Shown: positions 34,781 to 63,023 of the stretch, in pieces
Layout: each line of letters opens with the position of its first letter
How positions within the stretch are numbered: the first letter of the stretch is position 1
Origin: a bacterium
GTDB taxonomy: Bacteria; SAR324; XYD2-FULL-50-16
DNA: 64,000 bases
Direction of reading: 5' to 3'
Assembly (NCBI GenBank): GCA_024275165.1
Contig: JAJRZQ010000012.1
Location: forward strand, 186,001-250,000
Notes under the pieces: model-generated
The model's database searches: none
What the model saw: the letters and a program-made list of their open reading frames with translations, nothing else
What the model was told of the DNA's origin: nothing
Program-made: the position numbers and the translations under genes

Positions 34781-37624
34781 ATGAGTTGGGATGTCAATCG
34801 ATATTATCAGGTTCCTCAGGGGGGAGAAGAAGCGAAAAAGCTCGTCGAGAGTCTTTTGCAAAGTTACCCCTTGACGAAAGTCGCCTTTGAAATATTAGGC
34901 TCATCCCTGATTGATCAATCCTCTTTCGCCTACATTGGGGAGGGGAAAGACATCATTACCCAAGGGGAAAAGGGTAAAGACCTCTACTTGGTCTGCTTGA
35001 ACCCCGTGCAGGTTTTAGTGGATGGGGGGGTGGTCGTTACGATGGATTCGCCTGTTTTATTGGGGGATAAGGCCTTGATCTGGCCTGATTCTACCCGTGC
35101 GGCAACGATCCGGGTTCCTGCTAAAATGCGGGCCTTGGTGATTAAAATTCCCATGGGGTTGTTTTTGAGAGATTTTACCTATGCCGAAATTTCCGATACC
35201 AGTTTTAAGCGGGAAAAAGATATTTATTTAGGTCTCTTTCAAGAGATTCAAGCTCGACTTTTCAGCTATGTGCCGGAGCAAAAAAATCTCTTTGAAAGTA
35301 TCAACAGCACGATTTTAGGGCTGAACCGAAAATTTATCGCCCAACTTTTAGAAAAGGGAGAAGAGCTTTTTTGGCCGGAAGACGCCTGGGTGAGCCTGCA
35401 AAATTTTTTGCAGAGTAAATTTGAGTTTTACCCGCCGAAGGGGGAAAAACTAACCGTCGCTAATTTTAAACCCCTGTTGCAGGCGCACTTTAATACCCGC
35501 TATCGGCTTGGTTCTCTACCGGGGAATGAAGCGGAGAAGGTGGCTAAAAGACAAATGTTGTGGAATAGCTGGATTGCCCAAGCGGCAACCCACTTAGTGG
35601 GCAGTCTGCCGCAAAAAAATCTCAGTTTTTCCTTAAAGGATATTCAACTTTTTAATCCCCTCAATTACCAGGCTTCCATGAAAACTCTCATGGAACGGGT
35701 CGAGAACTTTTTTCCCCCTAGAGCCAAAGCGGTTCAAAAAGGGGATATCAGTGATTATTTGAAGTCCGGTGAGCAAAGCGGAGAGGTTGACCTCCATGCC
35801 TATCAGGCATATTTATGCAAGCATTACTACTTGAAATATCCCCAACGGGTGATCGCCATGCTGGCTCAATCCTGCGCCAGGATCGCCGCGGAGTGCGAAA
35901 ACGGATTCAACAAGGCCCTCGCTAAGATACGCCAGTACGATGAAAGCACCCAGCATTATAAATCCACGGTACAAGAGGCAACAACCAAGGAACTCGAGCC
36001 CAAGGTGGTACAAGCCCACTTGAATCAACTTTTGCGCGGATTCAACAAGTTGGCGCAAAATCGGGTCGGCGTGGGGGAGGTGCCTTTGGGAGAAACTCAT
36101 TATGTTCCCGCCTTAAGCGGGAAATTGCCCGAAGTGGCTGCCACGGGCTCAACCAAGCATGTGCAGGAATCTATTTCGGTCGCCTATCGAGAATTGTTGG
36201 AACATTTGGGCTTAGTCCAGGAGCCCTTGGGACTGGGGCCCCTCATTGAAAGAGTTCAACTTATGAGCGGTTTGCCCGGGAACCGCGTCCCCGCCTCAGA
36301 GTTGACAAAAAATTATTTTATCCCCCTTGGCAAGGGGATTCAGTTGAAATGCAATGATGTGTTTATTGAAAACGCCCAGCCCGGTGGTTTTTATGGGGGG
36401 GAGGGCTGGTTGCCGGTTGAGGAGGGAGCGGATCAACCCTATTTAAATCTACCGGAACGCAAAAAAGACGGTTTGGTGGATCAAGGGCATCTTTTTTTGG
36501 TGATTCCCAATTTGGATTTGAGCAAAACCCACATCAACGAAGAAAAGTTTGACACAGAGACCTTGCCTTGGTGGGTTTGGCTGAAAGATCGCATGATTCG
36601 TGAACTGCTGACCCTTACCAAAAACCGAGACCAACTTTTAGAGCGCTGCTTAAGCTTAGAAGAAGCCTTGAGCTTAGATGAAAAGGTAGCGGGGCTGGAA
36701 GAAAACGAAAACCCCTTGGGCGAAAACGAAGCGGAGCAGATTAAGGCATTGCTCACGCAACTTGCCGACTTTACTTGGGAAGAGCCGGGACTGAGTTCCA
36801 AAGAAGTGACCCGCCGCCTTTATGAGCATCTCGTTATCCAGGCGAAAACAGAAAACCCGGAGCATTCCGACGACCAGATTCAAAACCATTGTTATACTCG
36901 CTTTCGCTTTTTCTTAAGTGAAATGGTGCGGCTCTTAAATCAACCAGATAAGAGCGAAGAAGAAAAGGTCGATCAGGTGGACTATAGCCCTGTGGCGACG
37001 GTTCTCCATCATCGCTTGGCGCGGCTTTTGGAAGAAGAGGAGATCGAGCAGGCAAAACAATGGGTGCAAACCGATGGATCAAGTTTGGAGATTGATTTAA
37101 AAGAGATTCTTGCCACACAAAAGACCCTGGAAAAAAAGAAGAAGATTTTTCGGTTGATCCAAGGGAATCTAGAGCAAGAAGTTCTGAAATTGCGCAGGCA
37201 ACGGCGCCGCTTGGAAGAGCGGTTTGTGATCGTCGCCTCTGGGCAGCAGGGGGAAAAAGCCAAAGAACTGCAAAAGAAATTTATCCAAGAGCAGGTGGAA
37301 AAATTAGATAAATTGTTGTCGAAAGGGCTGCAAAGCGAGTTGAGTTCAGGTGAGGAAAGGCAAGATATTGAGGCAGCGTCCGCTGACACCCCGGAATCGG
37401 TCGCGACCGAGGGAGAAGAAGAGTTGGAATTGAGCCTAGACGATTTAGGTAAAGGGGGGTTGGATGACGATGACTTAGAAGGTGATTTAGGGGAAGGAGG
37501 ATTGGACGAGGATGACTTAGAAGGTGATTTAGGGGAAGGAGGATTGGACGAGGATGACTTAGAAGGTGATTTAGGGGAAGGAGGATTGGACGACGCGGCC
37601 CTGGAAGAGGGCTTAGCCGAATAG
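34781..37624 (+). CDS. cyclic-nucleotide-binding-domain protein with acidic repeat tail
   Basis: The 947-residue protein starts with a cNMP-binding-like beta barrel (about residues 35-130: FAYIGEGKDIITQGEKGKDL, then a DKALIWPDSTRAATIR segment). The classical phosphate cassette GE-RAA is only partly kept (ALIWPDSTRAAT), so cAMP or c-di-GMP binding is uncertain. The long middle (about 150-800) is helical with no family I recognise. A coiled coil (about 785-850) and a strongly acidic C-terminus with four 14-residue repeats follow. There is no DNA-binding domain. Soluble; single-gene unit with its own promoter, convergent with the nitrate reductase gene. Confidence 0.72.
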   Translation: MSWDVNRYYQVPQGGEEAKKLVESLLQSYPLTKVAFEILGSSLIDQSSFAYIGEGKDIITQGEKGKDLYLVCLNPVQVLVDGGVVVTMDSPVLLGDKALIWPDSTRAATIRVPAKMRALVIKIPMGLFLRDFTYAEISDTSFKREKDIYLGLFQEIQARLFSYVPEQKNLFESINSTILGLNRKFIAQLLEKGEELFWPEDAWVSLQNFLQSKFEFYPPKGEKLTVANFKPLLQAHFNTRYRLGSLPGNEAEKVAKRQMLWNSWIAQAATHLVGSLPQKNLSFSLKDIQLFNPLNYQASMKTLMERVENFFPPRAKAVQKGDISDYLKSGEQSGEVDLHAYQAYLCKHYYLKYPQRVIAMLAQSCARIAAECENGFNKALAKIRQYDESTQHYKSTVQEATTKELEPKVVQAHLNQLLRGFNKLAQNRVGVGEVPLGETHYVPALSGKLPEVAATGSTKHVQESISVAYRELLEHLGLVQEPLGLGPLIERVQLMSGLPGNRVPASELTKNYFIPLGKGIQLKCNDVFIENAQPGGFYGGEGWLPVEEGADQPYLNLPERKKDGLVDQGHLFLVIPNLDLSKTHINEEKFDTETLPWWVWLKDRMIRELLTLTKNRDQLLERCLSLEEALSLDEKVAGLEENENPLGENEAEQIKALLTQLADFTWEEPGLSSKEVTRRLYEHLVIQAKTENPEHSDDQIQNHCYTRFRFFLSEMVRLLNQPDKSEEEKVDQVDYSPVATVLHHRLARLLEEEEIEQAKQWVQTDGSSLEIDLKEILATQKTLEKKKKIFRLIQGNLEQEVLKLRRQRRRLEERFVIVASGQQGEKAKELQKKFIQEQVEKLDKLLSKGLQSELSSGEERQDIEAASADTPESVATEGEEELELSLDDLGKGGLDDDDLEGDLGEGGLDEDDLEGDLGEGGLDEDDLEGDLGEGGLDDAALEEGLAE
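37448..37615 (+). repeat. four tandem 42-bp coding repeats
   Basis: Four copies of a 42-bp unit encode GxGGLDDDDLEGDL-type 14-residue repeats (residues about 890-945 of the cyclic-nucleotide-domain protein). Copies 2 and 3 are nearly identical at the DNA level, which implies recent duplication; copies 1 and 4 have diverged. Copy number variation is expected. Confidence 0.9.
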
Positions 37625-37650: not shown

Positions 37651-39837
37651 TCAAGACTTGAGCAAACGCACCGGGGTATATTTATAACTCGGTTGTTTGG
37701 ATTGGGGGTCAAAATCAGGCAAGAGGATCCAGTTCACCTCTGGATAATGCATGGGCATGAAGACTTGCCCCAGGGCCACCTGAGGGCTGATCAGGCATTG
37801 CGCCCGCGCCTTGCCTTGTTTGCTTTCGACCCAGATGCTTTGACCGCTGACAAATCCTAAATTTTCCGCGTCGAGCGGGTTGACCTCCACATAGAGTTGG
37901 CGGGGAGACATTTTTTTTAAAATCGGGGCTCTCTCCGTGCGGGTGCCGGTATGCCACTGTACGGAGCTGCCTCGACCAGTCAATAAAATCAGTGGAAAAG
38001 AGAAGCTAGCTCGACCCGCGGGGGGGAGGGGCTCTCCAAAGCAAAAATGAGCCTTGCCTTGGGGGTGAAAAAATTCGCCCTCGGCAAAGAGGCGTTTTTT
38101 TTCAACTCCCTCTGCTCGCGGTTGAGGCCATTGCACCCCGCCTTTTTGTTTTAACTCCTCGTAACCGGCAATACCGGAAAAATCACAGGGCTGGCCTTGC
38201 GAAAGCTCTTGCAGTAAAGCAAAAGTTTGTTTTGGGCTCCCAAAACGGGCGACCAAGTCGTGGAGTCCCCATGCCTGACCCAGCAGCCTAAAGATTTCAA
38301 AATCGGTTTTGGCTCCCGCTGGTTTGGGGTGGGCCGGGGCTACATGGGCGAAGCGGCGTTCTGAATTGATCAAGGTGCCCTCCTTTTCTCCCCAAGCCGC
38401 GGCAGGCAAAAAAAGATCGGCCATTTTCGCGGTTGCCGTATCCGGGTAGAGGTCTTGTACGACCAAAAAGTCCAGCTTTTCTCGTAAACGCTTCCAGCGA
38501 GCCGGATCAATCCAGGAATGGGCCGGGTTGGTGGCAATGACCCAAAGCCCTTTGATCTTCCCCGCTTCAACCTCCTCCAGGATGCCTTGGTAGTCCAAGG
38601 AGTTTTCTTGGGGAATCGAGCTTTCTTCGATTTTTAAAATCCTCGCCACCTTGCCGCGATGAGCGGAGTTGGCAAACTCATGCCCCCCTAAAAGGTTGGT
38701 GGTGTTGGAAAAGAGCCTTGAGCCCATGGCATTGCATTGGCCCGTGATGCTGTTGGCCCCCGTGCCGGGGCGGCCTAGATTGCCGGTCATCAAAGCGAGG
38801 TTGATGAGAGCTTGGGCGACCAATACCCCTTGGTGGCTTTGGTTGACCCCCATGGTCCACCAAAAGGAGACGCGTTTTCCCTCTTGGATGCTCTCACCGA
38901 GTTCTAAGAGCAGGCTCTCATTTAAACCGGTTGCTGCCGCTACTTGGCTGAGGGGGAAGGCTTCGACAAAAGCGGCAAACTCGTTAAACCCCTGGGTATG
39001 GGCTTCAATATAGTCTTTATCAATGGCCCCCTGCCCAATCAGCCAATGGGCGAGCCCGTAAAATAGAATGAGGTCGGATTTAGGGCGCAAGGGGTAATGC
39101 GCGGTCGCTGCCTGAGCGGTTTGAGTCTTTCGCGGGTCGATTACGATGATTTTCGGGTTTTGTTGGTTGGCTAAAACCCGCTTCCATAATATGGGATGAT
39201 TGATACAGGGGTTGGCCCCGACAAAAACCAAGACATCGGATTCTTCTAAATCCTCATAACTAAAGGGAGGGGCATCGAACCCGAAGGATTGCTTATAGGC
39301 CGTTGCCGCGGTGGCCATACATTGGCGGGTGTTGCCGTCCCCGTGGAGCATGCCCATACCGAATTTGGCGAGACTGCCCAAAAAGGCCATCTCCTCGGTG
39401 ACGATTTGTCCGGTACTCAAAAAGGCGTTGGCGCTGGAGCTGGCGGTCTTTTGAATCTTTTGAAATCCCTGTACGAACAGTTCTGCCGCCCTTTCCCAAG
39501 AAATCGGTTGCAAGGAGCCGTCTGCTCGCTTCATCTGGGGTTGGCTTACCCGATCTGGCGAGTCTAAAGGGACTAAGCCTTGCCAACCCTTGGGGCACGC
39601 CTTCCCCTGGTTGACATTGAAGGCTTTATCCGGGGTTAGGTTGACGGTCTTCCCCTCTTTTTGATGGGCGATCAGGTTGCAGCCCGTGGAGCAAAATCCG
39701 CAAACCAGTTTGACCAAGGCCGTGGGTTGGAGTTTTTCTGGCAAGTTCCCCAAACCTTGATCCGACTTGGTTTGCCGCAAACTCTGGGTGAGGGGCCCCT
39801 GTTGATGAAAGAGCAGTTGTTTGAGTTTTATTTTCAT
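37651..39837 (-). CDS. nasA: assimilatory nitrate reductase catalytic subunit
   Basis: A 728-residue Mo-bis-MGD oxidoreductase that reduces nitrate to nitrite. Residues about 44-85 bind a 4Fe-4S cluster (CGFCSTGCNL and GKACPKG). The TRQCMATAATAYKQSFG block carries the candidate molybdenum ligand Cys, followed by DVLVFVGANPCINHPILW, and a C-terminal molydopterin dinucleotide-binding domain (LTGRGSSVQWHTGTRT). No Tat signal is present, so it is cytoplasmic and assimilatory. It overlaps the FeS/anchor gene by four bases, and the nirB-nirD-narK genes lie across the divergent control region. Confidence 0.92.
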   Translation of the reverse strand: MKIKLKQLLFHQQGPLTQSLRQTKSDQGLGNLPEKLQPTALVKLVCGFCSTGCNLIAHQKEGKTVNLTPDKAFNVNQGKACPKGWQGLVPLDSPDRVSQPQMKRADGSLQPISWERAAELFVQGFQKIQKTASSSANAFLSTGQIVTEEMAFLGSLAKFGMGMLHGDGNTRQCMATAATAYKQSFGFDAPPFSYEDLEESDVLVFVGANPCINHPILWKRVLANQQNPKIIVIDPRKTQTAQAATAHYPLRPKSDLILFYGLAHWLIGQGAIDKDYIEAHTQGFNEFAAFVEAFPLSQVAAATGLNESLLLELGESIQEGKRVSFWWTMGVNQSHQGVLVAQALINLALMTGNLGRPGTGANSITGQCNAMGSRLFSNTTNLLGGHEFANSAHRGKVARILKIEESSIPQENSLDYQGILEEVEAGKIKGLWVIATNPAHSWIDPARWKRLREKLDFLVVQDLYPDTATAKMADLFLPAAAWGEKEGTLINSERRFAHVAPAHPKPAGAKTDFEIFRLLGQAWGLHDLVARFGSPKQTFALLQELSQGQPCDFSGIAGYEELKQKGGVQWPQPRAEGVEKKRLFAEGEFFHPQGKAHFCFGEPLPPAGRASFSFPLILLTGRGSSVQWHTGTRTERAPILKKMSPRQLYVEVNPLDAENLGFVSGQSIWVESKQGKARAQCLISPQVALGQVFMPMHYPEVNWILLPDFDPQSKQPSYKYTPVRLLKS

Positions 39838-41252
39838 CCGGCTAATCCGATAGGCATTTTGGGGCCCAATCCGGCTTTAAAAAAGAGCAACCGCTCGCTC
39901 AAAGCGGCTCCCCAAGCGCTCAGGGCAATGAATAAAAAGAAGTAGCTATTCCATAGGGGGGAATAAAGGGCCCAAGGCAAGAGGCACCCCCACAGCACCC
40001 TTTGTTTCCATAAAGCGGCTAAAGGCCCCTGCATGAGTTGAACGCTCTTTTGGGCCAATCCGCTTTTGGCTTGCATGAAACTCGCCAACTCGATGCCGAG
40101 CAAGCCGCCGCCAGAAAGCGAGATCAGGCCCAAAACCAAAGTGAATTCATTGGCCTGTGCCCATAGTAGAGCTAAGACCGAGCCTAAACTGAAGGCGGTG
40201 AGATAAAACCCCAGCAGGGTACGGGCCCTGTTCCAGTGGGGCCGAGGGGTTTGCAGGTAGAGGTTGGCGGAACACCAAACCCCGGCCGCCCCGGCGCAGA
40301 GGGTCGCCCCCTTGACTGCCTCGGTGATTGCCTCTAGGGGAAACAACCAACGCAAAAGGATGGTGGCCAGGGCTAAATGGGCGTATAAACCAAAGCTTAA
40401 GACTTCTCGACTGATCCACGAGGTTCTCCAGCCTAAAATAGCCCGAAAGGCAAAGGTTGGGCGACCGAGATGCAATAAACTGGCATTGAGACCGACAAAG
40501 CCGAAAGCGAGGCTGAGAAGCTCGAACTTTTGCGCTTCCCGCAAAAAGAAGGAGACCCCCCACAAGCCGACGGAAGCCTGGGTGAGCAGCAGCATTACGA
40601 CTAAGGGCCAGTGGGTTGCCTCCGGCTCGCGGGTTTTATCGAGGGAGGAAAAGGTTTTCAGGGTCTTTGATTTCTCTCGGTATTTTGTCGCGGGCTCGGT
40701 AAAGGTGATTTCGGCCTCGGGGCTGAACCCAGGGGTTCCCTTCGAGTGGTCTTGGATCTCGCTTTTTGTACGAATCACCACCTTTAGAGCCTCATTGGGG
40801 CAGGCTTGCACGCAGGCGGGTTCTTCATTCACCGCTAAGCGCTGTTGACAGAGGTCGCACTTGCGGACGATCCTCAAGGCGGGTATCCATTTCGGCGCGT
40901 CATAGGGGCAGCGCAAAAGGCAATATTGGCAGCCGATGCATTGGTCGTCGAGATGTTTTACGATACCGGTGAGGGTGTCTTTTTCATAGGCCAAGGTGGG
41001 GCACCCGCTCATGCAGGCGGGGTCGAGGCAATGGTGGCATGAAGTGGTAATGGTTTGGTTGAAACTCGTTGCTTCCCCTTGTACCTGGGCTATCCCAATC
41101 GAGCGCCAGCTTTCTTCGGGTTCCAAACCGTTTAGGCTGTGGCAGGCGGTCACGCAGCCTTTGCAGCCCGTGCAAAGTTTTAGATCAACCTCGAAGGCGT
41201 ATTGTTCCCCTTTTTGGGGCAGCCGCTGGGGGATTAAAGAGAGAGCGTTCAT
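39834..41252 (-). CDS. FeS electron-transfer and DmsC-like membrane anchor fusion for nitrate reductase
   Basis: A 472-residue fusion. Residues about 15-160 form a DmsB/NrfC-type ferredoxin with four Cys clusters (CTGCKGCVTAC, CHHCLDPACMSGC, CIGCQYCLLRC and CDLCQQRL...CVQAC), enough for four 4Fe-4S centres. Residues about 215-470 form about eight membrane segments, like DmsC/YnfH quinol-oxidising anchors. It would pass electrons from membrane quinol to the cytoplasmic nitrate reductase that follows it. Its four-base overlap with nasA supports a complex. No good ribosome binding site precedes the ATG. Confidence 0.88.
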   Translation of the reverse strand: MNALSLIPQRLPQKGEQYAFEVDLKLCTGCKGCVTACHSLNGLEPEESWRSIGIAQVQGEATSFNQTITTSCHHCLDPACMSGCPTLAYEKDTLTGIVKHLDDQCIGCQYCLLRCPYDAPKWIPALRIVRKCDLCQQRLAVNEEPACVQACPNEALKVVIRTKSEIQDHSKGTPGFSPEAEITFTEPATKYREKSKTLKTFSSLDKTREPEATHWPLVVMLLLTQASVGLWGVSFFLREAQKFELLSLAFGFVGLNASLLHLGRPTFAFRAILGWRTSWISREVLSFGLYAHLALATILLRWLFPLEAITEAVKGATLCAGAAGVWCSANLYLQTPRPHWNRARTLLGFYLTAFSLGSVLALLWAQANEFTLVLGLISLSGGGLLGIELASFMQAKSGLAQKSVQLMQGPLAALWKQRVLWGCLLPWALYSPLWNSYFFLFIALSAWGAALSERLLFFKAGLGPKMPIGLAG

Positions 41253-41450
41253 GCTTTAAGTTGAGTTGTGGTTATATGGCTTTGGGCTTGAGGCCCCGAA
41301 CAGATCCAAACGAACCCCTGCAAATTTTCGTCTCCTCACGATTACTCCTGGGGTGGCCTCCCTTTGGGGGAGGAATCTTTTAATTTGCAATTTGGATACC
41401 CTTTGAATTATCTTTTATTATCAATTAGTTGATGATCCAAACTGGATGAC

Positions 41451-41465
41451 AGAATTGACAATTCT
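41451..41465. promoter_or_regulatory. 15-base palindrome, candidate operator
   Basis: AGAATTGACAATTCT is a perfect inverted repeat around a central A. A second GAATT/AATTC palindrome lies at 41498-41507. Sited about 85-120 bases upstream of the nirB -10/-35 region, they could bind a nitrogen or nitrate regulator. The protein is unknown. Confidence 0.35.
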
Positions 41466-41549
41466 CATCTATTTGGCATTCTTACCACTAATGACAAGAA
41501 TTAATTCAATAGCTTGCATATATATGTATCAAATAATAGATATTTTTAT

Positions 41550-41578
41550 TTGACATTTAGGGGGAAATGAGATTTAAT
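41550..41578 (+). promoter_or_regulatory. consensus sigma-70 promoter for nirB
   Basis: A perfect TTGACA, a 17-base spacer and TTTAAT (five of six). Transcription would begin near 41585, giving a leader of about 80 bases that contains the stem-loop at 41613-41661. Confidence 0.65.
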
Positions 41579-41612
41579 GAGCCCATCTCCTCCGAATTAT
41601 CCGCACGATTAC

Positions 41613-41661
41613 TCCTGATTTCGTCACCAATCCGGCCTTTGGTCCGGTGTACAAATCAGGA
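41613..41661 (+). promoter_or_regulatory. nirB leader stem-loop covering the ribosome binding site
   Basis: TCCTGATTT (41613-41621) pairs perfectly over nine bases with AAATCAGGA (41653-41661). The AGGA ribosome binding site (41658-41661, five bases before the ATG at 41667) is inside the 3' strand. The enclosed segment has a second GC-rich helix possibility around CCGGCCTTTGGTCCGG (41632-41647). Upstream, the 5' strand is part of the 14-base repeat at 41604-41617. The arrangement predicts that translation is off until the stem is opened by a ligand, protein or ribosome. It matches no leader class that I recognise. Confidence 0.55.
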
Positions 41662-41666
41662 ACTCC

Positions 41667-44162
41667 ATGGTTCGTCTTAGTAAATTGATCGTTATCGGCA
41701 ACGGTATGGTAGGGGCTAAGTTCTTAGACCTCCTCTGCCAAAGCCCGGCCCGCGAGCTTTATGAAATTCAGGTCTTTGGCGCTGAGCCCCAACCCGCTTA
41801 TGACCGGGTTGCCCTCTCGCGCCTCTTTGCCGACGCGACTCCGCAAGATTTAGAACTCTACCCCACCGCTTGGTATAAAGAGCAGGGCATTGAACTCCAT
41901 CTAAACTGCCCTATTGAGCGGTTGGATCTCATTCACAAAACCGTCCAGAGCAAAGAGGGTATCCTTCACCCCTATGACAAGTTGGTCATTGCCAGCGGCT
42001 CGAAGGCGTTTATCCCTCCGGTGGAGGGGTTGAGCGGGGAAGGGGTCTTTACCTATCGCGATTTGGCGGATGTGGATTCCATTCAGACTTACGGGAAAAA
42101 ACAAAAAAACGCTCTGGTGATCGGGGGAGGGCTTTTGGGGCTGGAAGCGGCAAAAGCCTTAAACGACTTCGGCCTCACTGTGACCATCTTGGAAGCGGCA
42201 CCTCGCCTGATGCCCATGCAACTCGATAATGAGGGCGCCCAAGAATTGCAATCTCAAATCGAAGACCTGGGGCTGAAGGTGATGACCCAAGCCTTGAGCG
42301 AACGAGTCGAGCGGGAAGGGGCGGGTTTGCGGCTCCATTTAAGGGGAGGCAAGGTCTTGCCTACCGATATGATTGTCGTTTCGGCGGGAATCCGCCCCCA
42401 GGACGAGCTGGCACGGCAAGCCGGCTTGGCTCTCGGGGAGCGGGGAGGAATCAAGATCGACCACAACATGCAAACCAGTGAGCCCAATGTGTTTGCTTTG
42501 GGTGAGGTGGCCTCCTTCGCGGGCCAGACCTTCGGGCTCGTGGCGCCGGGTTATCAGATGGCCCGTGCCGCCGTGGCGGTTTTCAATCAGGAAAAATCAC
42601 CCTTTGAGTTGCCTAATATATCCACTAAGCTGAAATTGTTGGGTGTCGAGGTAGCCAGTTTTGGGGACGCCTTGGAAGAGACCCCCGGTTGCGATGCCTT
42701 ACGGCTTTCCAACCCCGCGGCGGGGATGTATAAAAAGCTGGTTTTTCATCCGGAGGAAAACCGCCTTTTAGGCGGGGTCTTGGTGGGGGATGTCTCCGAA
42801 TTTGGAAAGCTCTCCCAACTGGTGCAGCGCGAGGCCGCGCTTCCCCCTAAACCCGAGGAGCTGCTTTTTCCGACAAAAAGCGACTCCAGCCCGACCAGTT
42901 TGGCTTTGCTGCCTTCAAGAACGGTGATTTGCAACTGCGAGAATCTAACCAAGGGCAAGATCATTGAAACCATTCGTGCCCAAGGGATCACCAATCTGGC
43001 CGATTTAAAGAAGGCCACCCGGGGGGGAACCGGTTGCGGAGGTTGCTCGCAACTTCTGACCGACTTGCTCAATTTAGAGTTGGAAGGCCAAGGAGTAGTG
43101 GTCAATAAGTCCCTCTGCGAACACTTTGCTTATACCCGAACTGAATTGTACGCAGAGATCAAAAAAGGGGGATACCACCTTTTTAGCGAGGTTTTGTCTC
43201 ATTTGGGCAGCGGCAAAGGCTGTGAAGTCTGCAAGCCGGTGGTGGCGAATCTTTTGGCCACTTTGTGGAATGATTCGGTGATGTCGAATAAGGAGATTCA
43301 AGATACCAATGACGCCTTTTTGGCTAATATTCAGGTGAATGGCAGTTACTCGGTGATCCCCAGGATGCCCGGGGGAGAAACCACGGCAGAGGGCTTAATC
43401 GCCATTGGCGAGGTGGCCAAAGAATTTAATTTGTATGTCAAACTCACCGGTGGCGAACGGATTGCCCTTTTTGGCGCCTCTTTGGAAGATCTCCCAAAAA
43501 TTTGGGGTCGGCTCATTGCGGCGGGTTTTGAATCCGGTCATGCCTATGGGAAGTCTCTCCGTACCGTTAAATCTTGTGTGGGCTCGACTTGGTGTCATTT
43601 AGGGGTGGGGGACTCACTGGATATGGCGGTGACTCTAGAAAACCGCTACAAAAGCTTGCGTGGTCCCCACAAGATGAAGGGGGCCGCTTCGGGCTGCATG
43701 CGGGAATGCGCTGAGGCGAATTGCAAGGATTTTGGTCTGATCGCGACGGAAAAGGGTTGGAACCTCTTTGTCGGCGGGAACGGCGGAATCAAGCCCCAGC
43801 ACGGCCAGCTTTTGGCCGCCGACATCACCAAGGAAGAGGCGATTCGCTATATTGACCGTTACCTAATCTATTATTTCCGCACCGCCGATAAGCTCACCCG
43901 CACCTCGACTTGGTTGAGCCTGTTGGAAGGGGGGATTGAACGCCTCAAAGAAATCATCGTTCAAGACTCTTTAGGCATTGCCGCGGAACTCGAAGCGGAG
44001 ATGGAACGCCTCGTGGCCAATCAGCATTGCGAATGGAAACGGCTCTTAGCGGATCCGCCAAAGCTGAGCCTCTTCCGCCCCTTCTTAAACAGCGACGACA
44101 GCGATGAGAGCATCCGCTTTCAAGAAAAACGCAGCCAAGTCGTTCCCCTTTTAACCCCCTAA
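41667..44162 (+). CDS. nirB: nitrite reductase (NADH) large subunit NirB
   Basis: NirB reduces nitrite to ammonium in the cytoplasm. The 831-residue protein has the NADH/FAD oxidoreductase part (about 1-400: VIGNGMVGAKFLDLL, VIGGGLLGLEAAKAL), a BFD-like 2Fe-2S domain (ICNCENLTKGKI ... GTGCGGCSQLL, about 415-465), and the siroheme/4Fe-4S part with SCVGSTWCHLGVGDS and SGCMRECAEANCKDFGLI (about 635-690). Length is normal. Its ribosome binding site is predicted to lie in the leader stem. It is followed by nirD with a short gap, or one-base overlap depending on the nirD start. Confidence 0.98.
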   Translation: MVRLSKLIVIGNGMVGAKFLDLLCQSPARELYEIQVFGAEPQPAYDRVALSRLFADATPQDLELYPTAWYKEQGIELHLNCPIERLDLIHKTVQSKEGILHPYDKLVIASGSKAFIPPVEGLSGEGVFTYRDLADVDSIQTYGKKQKNALVIGGGLLGLEAAKALNDFGLTVTILEAAPRLMPMQLDNEGAQELQSQIEDLGLKVMTQALSERVEREGAGLRLHLRGGKVLPTDMIVVSAGIRPQDELARQAGLALGERGGIKIDHNMQTSEPNVFALGEVASFAGQTFGLVAPGYQMARAAVAVFNQEKSPFELPNISTKLKLLGVEVASFGDALEETPGCDALRLSNPAAGMYKKLVFHPEENRLLGGVLVGDVSEFGKLSQLVQREAALPPKPEELLFPTKSDSSPTSLALLPSRTVICNCENLTKGKIIETIRAQGITNLADLKKATRGGTGCGGCSQLLTDLLNLELEGQGVVVNKSLCEHFAYTRTELYAEIKKGGYHLFSEVLSHLGSGKGCEVCKPVVANLLATLWNDSVMSNKEIQDTNDAFLANIQVNGSYSVIPRMPGGETTAEGLIAIGEVAKEFNLYVKLTGGERIALFGASLEDLPKIWGRLIAAGFESGHAYGKSLRTVKSCVGSTWCHLGVGDSLDMAVTLENRYKSLRGPHKMKGAASGCMRECAEANCKDFGLIATEKGWNLFVGGNGGIKPQHGQLLAADITKEEAIRYIDRYLIYYFRTADKLTRTSTWLSLLEGGIERLKEIIVQDSLGIAAELEAEMERLVANQHCEWKRLLADPPKLSLFRPFLNSDDSDESIRFQEKRSQVVPLLTP

Positions 44163-44173
44163 TGGAGACTTTG

Positions 44174-44497
44174 ATGAAATGGTATCCCACGATTGCGATT
44201 GAGCGGCTGGAGGTTGGTTTTGGCGGCTGCGTCAAACTGGAAGGGCAGCAGATCGCGGTTTTCCGCTATGGCCCAGAGGAGTTTTACGCTCTTTCGAACT
44301 GCTGCCCCCATAAAAAGCAGATGGTGATCGCGAGAGGTCTAATCGGCGACCTCGCAGGAAAACCAAAGGTTGCCTGCGCTTTGCACAAAAATCAATTTTC
44401 CTTAGAAACAGGAAAGTGCCTGAACACCGACTTAAGCAGTCTAAAAACCTATCAAGTTAAATTGGAAGAGGGGCAAGTCTGCATTGGCTTGCCCTAA
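44174..44497 (+). CDS. nirD: nitrite reductase (NADH) small subunit NirD
   Basis: The 107-residue Rieske-like small subunit of assimilatory nitrite reductase. It has CCPHKKQM and CALHKNQF, that is, Cys-Pro-His and Cys-x-x-His pairs that could bind a 2Fe-2S cluster; many NirD proteins have lost these ligands. I chose the ATG at 44174 because GGAG lies just before it. An ATG at 44162 in the same frame overlaps the nirB stop by one base and has no site. Confidence 0.93.
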   Translation: MKWYPTIAIERLEVGFGGCVKLEGQQIAVFRYGPEEFYALSNCCPHKKQMVIARGLIGDLAGKPKVACALHKNQFSLETGKCLNTDLSSLKTYQVKLEEGQVCIGLP

Positions 44498-44682: not shown

Positions 44683-46176
44683 ATGTCTACCCTTATTGGT
44701 GAGAGCGAAAAGCTCAATTTATTTTCCTTTACCGGCAAGATCAAGACCCTGCATTTGAGTTGGTTTGCCTTCTTTTTGACCTTTGTGGTTTGGTTTAATT
44801 TTGCCCCTCTGTTGGCTTCGATTCAAGAGACTTTAGGTTTAACGGGGCAGCAGGTTAAGCTCTTGATGATCCTCAATGTCGCCTTGACGATTCCCGCGCG
44901 TATCTTAATCGGTATGTTGGTGGATAAATTCGGCCCTCGGATAACCTATTCCTTGCTTTTGGCGATTTCCGGGGTGCTGTGCATGCTCTTTGCCTATGCG
45001 GATAGCTTTGAAAAAATGGCCCTGTACCGCTTTTTATTGGGCTTTGTCGGGGCGGGATTCGTGATTGGAATTCGCTTGGTCGCCGAATGGTTCCCGGCTA
45101 AACAAGTGGGTTTGGCCGAGGGGATTTATGGCGGATGGGGGAATTTCGGTTCCGCCGCGGCGGCAATGACCCTGCCTGCTTTAGCATTGATCTTTGGTGG
45201 TGAAGAGGGGTGGAGGCACGCCATCGCCTTGACTGGGGTGATTTCGCTGATTTATTCTTTTGTGTTTTACGCAATCGTCAGCAACAACCCTAAGGGGACG
45301 ACCTATTTCAAACCGAAGCAGCTCGGTGCCATGGAGGTGACCAGCAAGGGCGACTTTTTTCTTTACTGCTTGATGAGCGCCCCTTTATATTTAACCTTAG
45401 GGCTGCTGGTTTGGAAGATGTCACCGGTCAATCTTCAATTTTTTACGAACATCGAATCGCTGATTCTTTATGTTGCCCTCGCCGTGATCTATCTCTATCA
45501 AATCTTACAGATTTATCGGGTGAACCGAGGGCTGTTTGGGCCGAACGCTAAGCTTATTCCAGAAGTTCAACGCTATCAGTTTCGTCAGGTGGCGATTTTG
45601 GATTTAGCCTATCTGGGTACCTTTGGCTCGGAATTGGCGGTGATCTCGATGTTGCCCCTGTTTTTTAAAGATACCTTTGGGCTTTCGCAGTCCACCGCCG
45701 GCCTGCTCGCCTCTGGTTACGCTTTTATGAATCTCTTTGCCCGCCCCGGGGGGGGATTGATCTCCGATAAGTTTGGCCGGAAAAAAACCGTGTTGATTTT
45801 AATGTTGGGGCTCGCGGTGGGGTATGGCGTCATGGGGATGATCGATGGCTCTTGGCCCGTTGCTTTGGCGGTGGTGATCATTATGGCCTGTTCTTTTTTT
45901 GTGCAGGCTGGCGAAGGCGCGGTCTTTGGAATTATCCCCCTGATCAAGCGTCGCCTGACCGGGCAGATTGCCGGGATGGCCGGGGCCTATGGGAATGTAG
46001 GGGCGGTGCTTTTTTTAACCATCCTTTCTTTTGTAGAACCCACGGTTTTCTTTTACACTATTTCTGTGGCAGCCTTTATCACCGTGATTTTGGTCTTTTT
46101 TTTCTTAGAGGAGCCTAAAGGCTTTATCTATGAAGAACAACCCGATGGCAGCATCGAAAAGATCGCGGTGCATTAG
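44683..46176 (+). CDS. narK: nitrate/nitrite MFS transporter, NarK/NasA-type
   Basis: The 497-residue inner-membrane protein of the nitrate/nitrite porter family should import nitrate for the adjacent reductases. It shows about 12 segments plus one extra hydrophobic pair in the middle (about 225-275), WFAFFLTFVVWFNFAPLL in helix 1, GLAEGIYGGWGNFGSAAAAM (nitrate signature 1, family GGxGNxG pattern) and GQIAGMAGAYGNVGAVLFL (signature 2). GAGGAA precedes the ATG. The gene begins 185 bases after nirD and leads into the PP2C-kinase gene with a 23-base gap. Confidence 0.95.
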   Translation: MSTLIGESEKLNLFSFTGKIKTLHLSWFAFFLTFVVWFNFAPLLASIQETLGLTGQQVKLLMILNVALTIPARILIGMLVDKFGPRITYSLLLAISGVLCMLFAYADSFEKMALYRFLLGFVGAGFVIGIRLVAEWFPAKQVGLAEGIYGGWGNFGSAAAAMTLPALALIFGGEEGWRHAIALTGVISLIYSFVFYAIVSNNPKGTTYFKPKQLGAMEVTSKGDFFLYCLMSAPLYLTLGLLVWKMSPVNLQFFTNIESLILYVALAVIYLYQILQIYRVNRGLFGPNAKLIPEVQRYQFRQVAILDLAYLGTFGSELAVISMLPLFFKDTFGLSQSTAGLLASGYAFMNLFARPGGGLISDKFGRKKTVLILMLGLAVGYGVMGMIDGSWPVALAVVIIMACSFFVQAGEGAVFGIIPLIKRRLTGQIAGMAGAYGNVGAVLFLTILSFVEPTVFFYTISVAAFITVILVFFFLEEPKGFIYEEQPDGSIEKIAVH

Positions 46177-46199
46177 ATGACAAACAAAGAAAATTATTG

Positions 46200-47912
46200 A
46201 TGCGGCAAAATATAATCGTCAAGGCGGGGCAATGTTCCCACGCCGGGATCAAACCCTCCAATCAGGATTGCTGCGGGATTCGCATTCCTGAGGGTTCGGT
46301 TCTAGAATACAAAGGCATTGTCGCCGTGGTGGCCGATGGAGTGGGGAGTTCCGCCGCCGGGCGCGAAGCGAGCGAGCATTGCGTGAAAAGCTTTATCAGT
46401 GATTATTATAGTTCACCGGATTCCTGGGCGGCGCGCCGTTCCGGGGAAACAGTCACCAAGGCGCTCAATTCCTGGCTTTATAATCAAGGGCAAAAGCTTT
46501 ATGAAGAAGAATTATCTTTGGCTTCGACCTTGAGCGCTCTAGTATTAAAATCCACGACCGCCTATTTGTTTCATGTGGGGGATACTCGGATTCAATTGAT
46601 TCGCCAAGGGGTTTTAAAACCTCTGACCCGAGATCATCATATTATCGCAGGTCCGAAAAAGCGGTATTTGGCCCGGGCCATGGGGGCCGATAGCCAAGTC
46701 AATGTAGATTATTATCAGTTGGACTTACAGCCGCTGGATATCTTTATTCTCACCACCGACGGGGTGCATGAATCCTTAAGCCCCTTAGAACTCAAGGAAT
46801 TGGCTTTGGATGAGGGGAACAACCTCGAAGAACGGGCACGCCGCATTGTCGCCCAAGCGGTGGAACGGGGGTCGCAGGACAATACCACCTGCCAGATTTT
46901 GCAGATTGAAAGTTTACCCAATGAGCAGGATGAGGCGTTTTATGAAAAACTCACCGCCTTGCCCTTCCCCCCCCCGCTCAAGGCCGGCGACCGCTTTGAA
47001 GGGTATGAGATTATTAAGGAGCTTCATGCCAGTTCCAAGGTTCAGGTTTATTTGGCTCAAGACTTAGAACAAAAAAAAAAGGTGGTGATCAAAACCCCTT
47101 CCATCAACTATGAGGACGACTTGGCCTATATTCAGCGTTTTACCCATGAGGAATGGGTGGGCAAGGCCCTATCCAGCCCTCGAGTGTTGAAGGTGCTGGC
47201 ACCCTCAAAGCGTAAAAATTTTCTCTATTATGTAACGGATTATGTTGAAGGGGAAACGCTGGCCCAGTGGATTTTAGACCACCCCCTCCCCCCCCTGCAA
47301 AGGGTGCGCGAGTTTACTGCCCAGATTATTGAGGGGTTGCGCGCCTTTCAACGCAGAGAGATGGTTCACCAAGATTTAAAGCCTGAAAATATTTTGCTCG
47401 ATGCCCAAGGGCAGATCAAGCTGATTGATTTTGGTTGCGTCTTTGTGGCGGGGTTGCAAGAACTCTATTCTCCGGTGGAAGACAGCCGTATTCAAGGTAC
47501 GGAGGATTACATCGCCCCGGAGGTGCAAGAGGGCTTTGCCCCCACCTATCAAGCTGATTTGTATGCTTTAGGGGTGACGGTTTATGAAATGTTGACGGGG
47601 AAAATGCCCTATCCCCCCAAAGGCGACCTGCGTTTACCGGGAAAGCGGGAATACCGCCCAGCCCGTTTGAGCAACCCTTTGGTGCCCATTTGGATGGATG
47701 AGACGATTAAAAAAGCGGTTTGCCCTCAACCTCAATATCGCTATGAGAGTTTTTCTGAGTTTTTTTTCGACCTGAATAATCCCAACCCCGCTTTTTTTAA
47801 GCATCAGGCTCCCTTGATGGAGCGAGACCCCCTAACCTTTTGGAAGGGCTTTGCCCTTTTGCTTTTTTTGCTCAATGTGCTCTGGATTTTTCTTTTGGCC
47901 CAGGGGAAATAG
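46200..47912 (+). CDS. PP2C phosphatase-Ser/Thr kinase fusion with C-terminal anchor
   Basis: A 570-residue bifunctional regulator. Residues 1-240 are a PP2C phosphatase (NQDCCGIRI, VVADGVGSSAAGREASE, HVGDTRIQLI, LTTDGVHESL, DNTTCQIL, with metal Asp residues present). Residues about 260-530 are a Hanks-type kinase with Lys in KKKVVIKTPS, catalytic HQDLKPENIL (Asp about 392) and DFG, so both activities look intact. A single membrane helix (FALLLFLLNVLWIFLLAQ) ends the protein. Such fusions are known beside nirBD/nasA and nitrate transporters (for example in Pseudomonas), so it probably tunes nitrate assimilation by reversible phosphorylation; the substrate is unknown. I chose ATG 46200 over the TTG just before it. 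Confidence 0.92.
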   Translation: MRQNIIVKAGQCSHAGIKPSNQDCCGIRIPEGSVLEYKGIVAVVADGVGSSAAGREASEHCVKSFISDYYSSPDSWAARRSGETVTKALNSWLYNQGQKLYEEELSLASTLSALVLKSTTAYLFHVGDTRIQLIRQGVLKPLTRDHHIIAGPKKRYLARAMGADSQVNVDYYQLDLQPLDIFILTTDGVHESLSPLELKELALDEGNNLEERARRIVAQAVERGSQDNTTCQILQIESLPNEQDEAFYEKLTALPFPPPLKAGDRFEGYEIIKELHASSKVQVYLAQDLEQKKKVVIKTPSINYEDDLAYIQRFTHEEWVGKALSSPRVLKVLAPSKRKNFLYYVTDYVEGETLAQWILDHPLPPLQRVREFTAQIIEGLRAFQRREMVHQDLKPENILLDAQGQIKLIDFGCVFVAGLQELYSPVEDSRIQGTEDYIAPEVQEGFAPTYQADLYALGVTVYEMLTGKMPYPPKGDLRLPGKREYRPARLSNPLVPIWMDETIKKAVCPQPQYRYESFSEFFFDLNNPNPAFFKHQAPLMERDPLTFWKGFALLLFLLNVLWIFLLAQGK

Positions 47913-59104: not shown

Positions 59105-60127
59105 GTGACGGTGAGCGCAAAAGGAAATGAAAAACGGATTGCCCTGGTTTTGGGAAGGGCATTGCTGCCGCTGCTGAGCATCGTTTTGCTCGGGAGTTTA
59201 GGGTATCATTTTATTGAGGGTTGGCCTTGGTTTGACAGCCTGTATATGACCATCATTACCTTGACGACGGTAGGTTATCAAGAAACCCACCCTTTGAGCC
59301 AAATCGGCAAAGGATTTACCTTGATTTTGCTCTTGGTGGGAATCGGTAATTTTGCCTATGTGGTTCGAACCCTTTCATTGGATTTCTTAAACCCGCTGCT
59401 TTCAGGATATTTTAAGGATTTACGCATGGAGCAGACATTAGAAAAACTTAAAAACCATTATATAATTTGCGGTTATGGCCGCATCGGTAGGGATGTGGTC
59501 GCTCAGTTGCTGGCGGCGGATAAATCCGTGGTGGTCATTGATGGGCTCGAACCGGAAAAACTAGGTGGGGTAGATTCTGGTTTGTTGTTTGTTCAAGGGG
59601 ATGCCAGTCATGAAGAGGTTTTATATAAAGCGGGTATAGAGCGGGCGAAGGGATTGGTCAGCGCGGTGCGCTCCGAGGCGGAAAATGTTTTTATCACCAT
59701 GACGGCTCGGGGAATCAACGCGAAACTTTTTATTATCGCTCGTTACGAAGAAGAACCAACGAAAAAAAAGCTGATCCGCGCCGGCGCCAACCGAGTAATC
59801 AATCCTTATAGCATTGGCAGCAGCAAGATCAGTCAGATTATTTTACAGCCCACGGTGAGTAAAATTATTGATTTTGCCTCCTCTCATGAAGGCTTAAATT
59901 TAAATTTTGAAGAATTCGACATCCACCCCACCCATCCCTTTGTCGGGCAAACTCCACAAACCTGCGGGGTGAGAGAACAATTTAATGTCATTATCATCGC
60001 GGTGGAAAAAGCAGGGGGAAGAATCATCTCCAATCCCGGCGCCCAATATGTCTTTGAAGCGGGAGACAAGGTGGTGATGATTGCCGATCAACAAGAAATG
60101 GTTAAACTGTTAAAAAGCTATGCTTGA
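59105..60127 (+). CDS. two-TM potassium channel with RCK/TrkA domains
   Basis: The 340-residue protein has two membrane helices (about residues 12-32 and 72-92) around a pore with filter TTVGYQE, then an RCK_N domain (YIICGYGRIGRDVVAQLLAA, about 118-240) and a TrkA_C domain (about 255-340). This is the MthK/Kch-like architecture of ligand-gated potassium channels. The filter ends GYQE, not GYGD or GYGE, which is unusual. The start is GTG 59105 (GTG 59111 is possible). It overlaps the WD40 gene by eight bases. Confidence 0.88.
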   Translation: MTVSAKGNEKRIALVLGRALLPLLSIVLLGSLGYHFIEGWPWFDSLYMTIITLTTVGYQETHPLSQIGKGFTLILLLVGIGNFAYVVRTLSLDFLNPLLSGYFKDLRMEQTLEKLKNHYIICGYGRIGRDVVAQLLAADKSVVVIDGLEPEKLGGVDSGLLFVQGDASHEEVLYKAGIERAKGLVSAVRSEAENVFITMTARGINAKLFIIARYEEEPTKKKLIRAGANRVINPYSIGSSKISQIILQPTVSKIIDFASSHEGLNLNFEEFDIHPTHPFVGQTPQTCGVREQFNVIIIAVEKAGGRIISNPGAQYVFEAGDKVVMIADQQEMVKLLKSYA

Positions 60128-63023
60128 GCGATTCGTATGCTTACGACCCCTTTTGCTGGGAATGATTTGGCTTTTATTCCTACCGAACCTTAGCCTCGCT
60201 AAGGAGGAATATGTAGTCAACCGCACCTATAACGCGCCGAAAGGCACTCTTTATGGGGGCAGTATGTCTCGCGATGGAAAGTATATCTTTGCCATTGATA
60301 AAGATTACAACCTGAGGATTTGGAGGTATACTACAGGAAGAATCATCAAATCCATCAAGGGCGGCCGTCATCGGCCCATTGCCGGGGTTTTTCATCCCAC
60401 GCGCCCGATTCTTTTCACGGTGGGTAAAGATGGAAATGTCTATATCTGGGATATTGCCAAGGGCGCTAAAATACAGGTTTTACAGACCCATATTCAAGAG
60501 TTGCACGCGATTGCCATTAGCCCCAATGGGAAAAAGTTGGCCGTAGGGGGGAAGGGACGCAATATTATCATCTGGAGTCTGGACCGTTATAAAATATATA
60601 AAAAAATTATTGAACCGAGCCGGAATGTCTTATCCTTAGATTATCATCCAGATGGGAAAACGATTGCCTGGTCGAACGGCAATCAAGAGGTCAAAGTCTG
60701 GAACACCGCCAGCGATACTCTGGTCGCCCGTTATAAGAAACACAAAACAAAAATCACTCACCTGAAATTTCACCCTTCGGGAAAGCTCATTGCCAGCGCT
60801 GATTTTTCGGGTCAGGTGGTTTTATATAACCTGGAAAAACGAGCGGTTCAGCGAGTTTTTAAGGAAAATAAAAAGGCTGTTTCCGCCGTTGATTTTGATG
60901 TCACCGGAAAAGAGATGATGACCTGTTCGCTGGACGGCACCATTAAGCTGCGCAGGCTCAGGAGCAATAAACAAATCCAAAAGTTTAAATTGGTGGGGAA
61001 ACCGGTTCACTTTTGCGAGTTTTCCGCTGACTCCAAGCAGGTGGTGGCTATTTTCGATACCAGTTACCTCAGGAGTTGGAATTTGGAGGATTCGAGTCAT
61101 ATCGGTTCCTTTAAGGGGCATAAAAAGGCAATTGTTGATTTGGATATCTCCCCCAATGGGGCCTTACTCGTTTCCGTGGGGCAGGACAATCAAATTATTC
61201 TTTGGAATGTAGCAAAAAAGTCCATGATCCGCTCTTTCAATGCCGAGGGACACAACCCGCAAGCCATTCGTTTTTCTCCAGATAACTTAAGGTTTGCCAC
61301 TGCCGGGGGGGATGCCACCATCAAAATCTGGAATAAGGCGAACGGTAAGGTTCTCAATACCTTGAAGGGGCATTCGGGGAAGGTCAATGCCTTGGCGTTC
61401 CACCCTTTTGAGAATACGCTTTTGAGTGCCGGGGCAGATAAAAAAGTGATCCAATGGGATTTGTCGACGGGCAGCAGAATGTTTGAACGGACCGAGCATC
61501 AAGGGCAAATTTTTCAAATTAAAATCAGCGAAGATGGGGAAAAATATCTCACCGCCAGTCAAGACCGAACCGCGAAGTTATGGCGTTACTACGATCACCA
61601 ACTGCTTTACGAATTCAAGGGGCACAAGAGAGGAGTTCGGGCCATTGCCTTTGCTCCCGGTAAGGAGAGGGTCGCTACCGGTTCGGACGATAAAAGCATT
61701 CGGATTTGGGATACCAGCACGGGCAAAATGAGCCATATGCTTTTAGGGCATGATTTTATCATTAGCGGTTTGCGATTTGCGACCGATGGGAAAACCTTGG
61801 TTAGTTCGAGCCGAGATAAAACCATTCGGATGTGGGATGCCCAGAGGGGCGCGTTTATCCGTACCTTATCGGGTCAGGATGATCAAATCGTCGCTATTTC
61901 AGTGACTTCAAATGGAAAATTTTTAGCTTCTGGAACCTTGAACGGGGAAATCAATTTGCTCAAATTACCCAAAGAACTCTTTCGCGCCACGGCTTCCTCG
62001 GCAGAGCAAAAGCGCAAGGCCTTACCGCTGGGGGAGGATTTGCCTAGCGATGCGACCGCTTTTTTTGAGCCCCTCCCAAACCCTAAGCCAAGCGTGGAAA
62101 AAAAGAAATCCTCCGCGGTGAAGGAAAAGGATATTATTGAAGAAGAAGTGATAGAGCGCAAAGACAATGTGTTTGAGCCCCTCGTCGTGCAAGAAAATCA
62201 AGAACTCAAAGCGGCCAGGGTTAGCTTAAACAATGCCTTAAAAAATACTGCGAACTGTGTTAATTCGGTTCAAATCGCCAACCTCGCATTTGAAATTTTA
62301 AAAAAAACCCCCGATGATTTAACGGCTTACTATGCTCTTTTGCGTTATTATTTGGCGCAAAAGGATATGCAAGCTTTATTTATGGTGGCGCAAATCGGCC
62401 AAAGGGGGAAATTCTACAAGGAAGTTTATGATTATAAATCCGAACAACGGGTGCGTGATATTTTTAAGGATTGGAATAATAATATTTTAGAAGTGGAAGA
62501 TACAAAAAATCAAATTCAATTTGAGCTGGTTGATTGCAACCAGATGGTCACGGATGTAGAAGTTCCTAAAGCTTTACCGGTTCTCAGTTTGCCCCTTGAG
62601 GTTGGGGCGCGGGTTTTAAATGGTGAGATTCGATTGGATTTAAGCCTCTTCGCAGGTTTGGAAAAACAGCCCGAAGTGTTTATCAATCGGTTTTTTGCTT
62701 TTGTTCAAGGGAGCATGCGCAAGCTAAAGCGGGTCAACCTCCAAACCCTTGAGCCCTACCAACCCCCTCCCGTAGGGGAAGCGATTTTTGGTTATTTAGT
62801 GCTTGATTTGGTTCAGTTTCAGTCGATGGGGCAACCAGAGGGGAGAGTGTTTTTTCAATTAAAAAAAGGCCAGGAGGGCTGGCGTACCTATGGTACGACA
62901 CTGAAAAAGAAGCGAGAATTGATGCTGCTCAAGGGGAATTATTATCTCAAAGTAGGGGGGGAGGTGGTCAGTGCCTTTGAAATCAATAAAAATAAGCAGG
63001 TCATTACCCAGGCCGTTCCCTAA
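60120..63023 (+). CDS. secreted WD40-repeat protein with C-terminal domain
   Basis: A 967-residue exported protein. The signal peptide is residues 1-27 (LLLGMIWLLFLPNLSLA). Residues about 35-625 contain about fourteen WD40 repeats with GH/IWD landmarks (for example LKGHSGKVNALAFHPFENTL and SDDKSIRIWDTSTGKMSHML), enough for two seven-bladed propellers. A low-complexity linker (about 630-690), a helical region (about 695-800) and a beta-rich C-terminal domain (about 810-967) follow. The helical region and C-terminal domain match no family I know. It is translationally coupled to the potassium channel gene. Confidence 0.87.
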   Translation: MLERFVCLRPLLLGMIWLLFLPNLSLAKEEYVVNRTYNAPKGTLYGGSMSRDGKYIFAIDKDYNLRIWRYTTGRIIKSIKGGRHRPIAGVFHPTRPILFTVGKDGNVYIWDIAKGAKIQVLQTHIQELHAIAISPNGKKLAVGGKGRNIIIWSLDRYKIYKKIIEPSRNVLSLDYHPDGKTIAWSNGNQEVKVWNTASDTLVARYKKHKTKITHLKFHPSGKLIASADFSGQVVLYNLEKRAVQRVFKENKKAVSAVDFDVTGKEMMTCSLDGTIKLRRLRSNKQIQKFKLVGKPVHFCEFSADSKQVVAIFDTSYLRSWNLEDSSHIGSFKGHKKAIVDLDISPNGALLVSVGQDNQIILWNVAKKSMIRSFNAEGHNPQAIRFSPDNLRFATAGGDATIKIWNKANGKVLNTLKGHSGKVNALAFHPFENTLLSAGADKKVIQWDLSTGSRMFERTEHQGQIFQIKISEDGEKYLTASQDRTAKLWRYYDHQLLYEFKGHKRGVRAIAFAPGKERVATGSDDKSIRIWDTSTGKMSHMLLGHDFIISGLRFATDGKTLVSSSRDKTIRMWDAQRGAFIRTLSGQDDQIVAISVTSNGKFLASGTLNGEINLLKLPKELFRATASSAEQKRKALPLGEDLPSDATAFFEPLPNPKPSVEKKKSSAVKEKDIIEEEVIERKDNVFEPLVVQENQELKAARVSLNNALKNTANCVNSVQIANLAFEILKKTPDDLTAYYALLRYYLAQKDMQALFMVAQIGQRGKFYKEVYDYKSEQRVRDIFKDWNNNILEVEDTKNQIQFELVDCNQMVTDVEVPKALPVLSLPLEVGARVLNGEIRLDLSLFAGLEKQPEVFINRFFAFVQGSMRKLKRVNLQTLEPYQPPPVGEAIFGYLVLDLVQFQSMGQPEGRVFFQLKKGQEGWRTYGTTLKKKRELMLLKGNYYLKVGGEVVSAFEINKNKQVITQAVP

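Follow-up and report, generated by a model that had tools for sequence, protein, structure and literature searches.

A predicted hairpin masking the Shine-Dalgarno sequence of nirB in a SAR324 bacterium, and its plausible role in regulation

Introduction

A hairpin that masks the Shine-Dalgarno (SD) sequence is the form that RNA thermometers take, and in the standard design of a toehold switch the SD is placed in the loop. In leader hairpins that sequester the SD, the motif lies in the 3′ arm of a stable stem and the start codon just outside it. In synthetic toehold switches (e.g. PMC9071393), an unpaired 5′ stretch precedes an SD-hiding stem, which a complementary RNA could invade. Nitrate-assimilation genes are known targets of ANTAR regulation (PMC7496416, PMC5424462), and NasR-type ANTAR targets consist of two hairpins with hexanucleotide loops, which carry A1 and G4 and are closed by a C:G pair (PMC7496416).

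Here we describe the leader of an assimilatory nitrite reductase gene, nirB, in a bacterium of the SAR324 lineage. The window, that is the whole stretch of DNA analysed, comprises 64,000 nucleotides (GenBank assembly GCA_024275165.1, contig JAJRZQ010000012.1, positions 186,001 to 250,000 of the forward strand), and coordinates below refer to it. The nirB hairpin resembles SD-sequestering leader hairpins in the placement of its SD and start codon, and differs from them in being without phylogenetic support. With the NasR/NasT leaders (PMC7496416, PMC5424462) it shares the presence of RNA structure before a nitrate-assimilation gene; unlike those two-hairpin leaders, it has one hairpin, no pair of hexaloops, and no terminator between the hairpin and the gene. 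It has the same order of single-stranded 5′ stretch and SD-hiding stem as a toehold switch, but its sequence is natural, any trigger is hypothetical, and its SD lies within the stem, not the loop.

Results

Genes of the region

The nirB start codon was backed by comparison of the N-terminus with those of homologues. The genes around it are as follows.

37651-39837: nasA-like molybdopterin oxidoreductase, after nasB
39834-41252, minus strand: divergent gene, here called nasB, 472 aa, 4Fe-4S plus DmsC-like membrane subunit (Pfam)
41667-44162, plus strand: nirB, NAD(P)H nitrite reductase large subunit, 831 aa (Pfam Pyr_redox_2, Fer2_BFD, NIR_SIR)
44162-44497: nirD, downstream of nirB
44683-46176: NarK-like MFS transporter, downstream of nirD
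46197-47912: PP2C phosphatase-Ser/Thr kinase fusion, immediately downstream of the NarK-like transporter

Two further genes of the window were recorded, one next to nasA (34781-37624) encoding a 947-aa protein without Pfam matches whose acidic C-terminus is repetitive (DDLEGDLGEGGLDE repeats), the other (60120-63023) encoding a 967-aa WD40-repeat protein with strong matches to eukaryotic beta-propeller models.

The predicted fold of the nirB leader

The original prediction had been that a perfect nine-base stem in the nirB leader contains the AGGA of the ribosome-binding site in its 3′ strand and buries it. The stem is present at exactly the positions given, with zero mismatches, and its parts are listed here.

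41613-41621, plus strand: 5′ arm of the SD-masking stem, TCCTGATTT
41622-41652, plus strand: apical part of the hairpin in the predicted fold, where CACC and GGTG form a second helix and a small helix sits at the top
41653-41661, plus strand: 3′ arm, AAATCAGGA, which includes the nirB SD AGGA (41658-41661); predicted P(SD unpaired) about 0.02

Beyond the nine perfect pairs the arms continue imperfectly, reaching 16 nt in all (41613-41628 with 41646-41661, 81% complementary), and the nirB ATG (41667) follows five bases past the end of the AGGA (41661), so that the AUG lies immediately beyond the stem. Both the 9-bp stem and the second enclosed helix are present in the leader's minimum-energy fold, and the 49-nt hairpin by itself has a predicted energy of -19.5 kcal/mol. 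In the predicted ensemble the SD was about 98% paired, as the burial claim requires, for any 5′ end tried from 41430 to 41612; the probability of an unpaired SD reached about 0.3 only with a 5′ end at 41616 or later. The predicted masking is therefore independent of the candidate promoter, which is located as follows.

41550-41578, plus strand: candidate nirB promoter, TTGACA-17-TTTAAT, with 11 of 12 consensus matches and an implied start near 41585

The leader had been placed behind a consensus promoter, and 11 of the 12 positions do match, but the -10 box TTTAAT is without the usual A at position 2. By its sequence the promoter is plausible rather than clearly consensus, and the start near 41585 is a guess. 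Within the nirB leader no alternative partner was seen for the 5′ arm, and hence no built-in second state is visible.

Comparison with known RNA classes

The original prediction also held that the leader differs from the ANTAR targets and from any familiar leader class. An Rfam covariance comparison agreed, as no family matched the region at the gathering score (best unthresholded E values 1.9 and 2.1). An ANTAR-type (NasR/NasT) antitermination leader would fit a gene class known to be targeted in this way, but the nirB leader contains no tandem A1/G4 hexaloop hairpins, the sole A1/G4 hexaloop, at 41554, being unpartnered and closed by a U-A pair. Nor was the ANTAR domain PF03861 found in the genome of the window (G000, 98% complete); as controls, the same domain was found in two proteins of a Pseudomonas genome and in none of the Klebsiella genome tried. 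An RNA thermometer would be expected to open on warming, but the predicted P(SD unpaired) rose only from 0.004 to 0.039 between 4°C and 65°C, so the fold is hardly temperature-responsive. That the nirB leader is either an ANTAR-type leader or a thermometer is thus barely credible.

Comparison of the stem with chance expectation

When both arms were searched for at their native spacing, with up to 3 mismatches permitted, the window yielded 1 match, the perfect one, against 0.04 expected in shuffled windows, and with any spacer from 10 to 40 bases the perfect arm pair is found just once in the 2.7-Mb genome. For comparison, gene starts were predicted in a 393-kb sample of this genome, and every leader that had an SD of 4 bases or more and 82 bases free upstream was kept, 104 in all; the starts were set by a simple rule and are approximate, some being wrong (e.g. 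nasB at 41153). Ranked by the longest perfect stem covering the SD, nirB came first of the 104 with 9 bp, the others having 0-7; the runner-up, with 7, comes from a start wrongly placed within nasB, and after it comes a leader with 6. By P(SD unpaired), about 9% of the sampled leaders have an SD as occluded as that of nirB. Shuffling of the upstream leader with the SD region held fixed gave a probability of 0.003 per leader for a stem of at least 9 bp, so that chance alone would give about 0.3 such stems among the 104 leaders and the first rank of nirB is suggestive only. The folding energy of the whole leader is ordinary relative to shuffled sequence (z = -1.19). The nirB stem stands out, yet by itself it is not beyond chance.

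These numbers make it a serious possibility, though one we would not bet on, that the stem is chance complementarity with no regulatory role, nirB then being expressed through cotranscriptional ribosome loading or from a transcription start within the leader. The expected number of chance stems and the unremarkable z-score favour such an accident, as does the fact that the stem is kept in no homologue leader (see below). It fits less well with the first rank of nirB and the exact coverage of its SD, with the second enclosed helix, and with the overlap between the 5′ arm and an improbable 14-mer repeat.

Relatives and their nirB leaders

To follow the stem in relatives, we collected nirB genes by several searches. 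Across 52 genomes of the phylum, 4 others encode NirB at E <= 1e-100, with 37-53% identity, and an alignment-based scan returned 80 nirB loci with 47-52% identity; scans of genome and viral contig collections revealed no close NirB relatives, and a plasmid search with the nirB leader gave no match. The nearest nirB genes found are 50-53% identical, and divergence between the leaders is too great for alignment. Scoring was attempted on 83 nirB leaders (the 80 scan loci plus three of the phylum) and succeeded for 78, none of which has a 9-bp stem covering the SD; one has 8 bp, one 7, and nearly all others 0-5. The same-phylum relatives G027, G042 and G001 have an SD-covering stem of 3 bp. The absence of the stem from these diverged leaders argues against a widespread class, not against a stem maintained within the lineage.

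In G027, nasB and nirB are divergent, as in the window, and both G027 and G042 have a gene for a NorR-like AAA+/Fis-type regulator near nirB. A 55% identical homologue of this regulator, containing GAFTGA, is encoded elsewhere in the genome of the window (L149 1495-3000, on G000:C45) and is a candidate activator of these genes.

The repeated 14-mer and the divergent leader

The 5′ arm had been reported to overlap a 14-base motif recurring at 41337. Indeed, CACGATTACTCCTG occurs exactly at 41337-41350 and 41604-41617, and the match extends to 17 of 18 bases. Both copies and the features beside them are as follows.

41256-41339, minus strand: possible leader-peptide ORF of 27 codons with a GTG start at 41339 and a good SD (sequence inspection)
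41333-41350: repeat copy 1, TCCTCACGATTACTCCTG on the plus strand; the minus strand reads CAGGAGTAATCGTG, an SD and GTG, with the 27-codon ORF
41357-41373: GC-rich palindrome CCTCCC-TTTGG-GGGAGG adjoining copy 1, terminator-like on the plus strand
41600-41617: repeat copy 2, TCCGCACGATTACTCCTG on the plus strand; the minus strand reads CAGGAGTAATCGTG, an SD and GTG, with a 10-codon ORF

When the intergenic region was Markov-shuffled 1000 times, an exact repeat of at least 14 nt arose in only 2 of the shuffles, and the 14-mer is the longest repeat among 110 intergenic regions, one at a contig end excepted. Local alignment of the two repeat regions was significant, owing to the 18-mer. A genome-wide search returned no regulon for the 14-mer; the nearest further match is the SD and start of recA, whose ATG is also preceded by the AGGAGTAATC context. 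Elsewhere, the start of contig C47 (L048 1-545) has a 30-base direct repeat, CTTAACAGAGCCAACGAGGCGGGGTCGCCG, with a spacing of 175.

The more informative reading of the repeat appears to be that on the minus strand, where it would represent an SD and start codon beside the divergent nitrate-reductase gene. From inspection of the sequence, copy 1 is plausibly the ribosome site of a leader ORF. The 27-codon ORF stops 3 nt before the nasB ATG (41252) and in the same frame (TAA AGC ATG), and inspection revealed no SD before that ATG, which makes translational coupling of nasB through the short ORF plausible; in the 393-kb sample, SD-poor starts are common among the predicted genes. On the minus strand the palindrome at 41357-41373 would form a hairpin upstream of the SD of the 27-codon ORF. 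Further upstream of nasB, the minus strand at 41386-41401 reads GGGTATCCAAATTGCA, a sigma-54-like element (GG-N10-GC, 8 consensus matches) that would put the nasB start near 41375, and a 7-1-7 palindrome, AGAATTGACAATTCT, lies at 41451-41465, at activator distance upstream of this element.

The repeats and inverted arms could instead act at the DNA level, with a protein binding to them at both ends of the divergent nasB-nirB promoter region and the RNA stem a by-product. The position of the 17/18-nt direct repeat at both ends of this region would suit such a protein, as would the NorR-like regulator genes of G027 and G042 and their homologue here. We nevertheless consider it unlikely: the inverted arm AAATCAGGA is missing from copy 1, the 14-mer has no palindromic symmetry, the next-best copy in this genome is the recA SD and ATG, and no clear copy was seen by eye in the intergenic sequence of relatives that was read.

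The same repeat raises the possibility that the two divergent leaders form a natural toehold-like switch: the leader RNA of the nitrate-reductase operon would open the masked nirB SD while covering its own. In this scheme CAGGAGUAAUCGUGAGGA (41350-41333, minus strand) would pair with UCCGCACGAUUACUCCUG, the unpaired 5′ side of the nirB leader, and invade the lower stem. Of 18 positions, 17 are complementary between the nasB leader RNA and this 5′ side, the hybrid has a predicted energy of -27.8 kcal/mol, with a predicted net of -6.6 to -8.5 kcal/mol after opening costs, and occupation of 41600-41617 is predicted to raise P(SD unpaired) from 0.02 to about 0.34. Such opening of the nirB SD is only partial, however, and complementarity follows automatically from a direct repeat between divergent transcripts, so that the 17/18 match adds nothing independent. 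Nor is the global duplex score specific, as another leader reaches -51.0 where nasB has -50.0. Because of this automatic complementarity and unspecific score, we regard the switch as very improbable. If it were true, synthesis of nitrite reductase would be tied to the presence of the nitrate-reductase message, and a trigger from the divergent leader would be a natural counterpart of the synthetic design.

Discussion

We tentatively favour a lineage-specific hairpin that gates nirB translation, a reading to which we give somewhat less than an even chance. The nirB leader would fold into a long hairpin with the SD within its basal nine pairs, which by default would make ribosomes initiate less often on nirB and, if the downstream genes are coupled to it, on these as well. 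Relief could come from disturbance of the 5′ arm, by a bound protein or a pairing RNA, or from ribosome loading during transcription. From the predicted fold we infer that the hairpin may form in the cell, that it may control translation and that this control may itself be regulated; a role in regulation is plausible. In favour of such gating is the overlap of the 5′ arm with the repeated 14-mer, itself improbable by chance. Against it, the stem had been picked for its looks in the original prediction, from a genome in which a fraction of one such stem is expected in the sampled leaders.

The case so far consists of one hairpin in one genome. If real, the hairpin would represent translational control of an assimilatory nitrite reductase in a lineage in which the ANTAR protein was not found, and would add a regulatory layer beyond those in the nas literature that we found.
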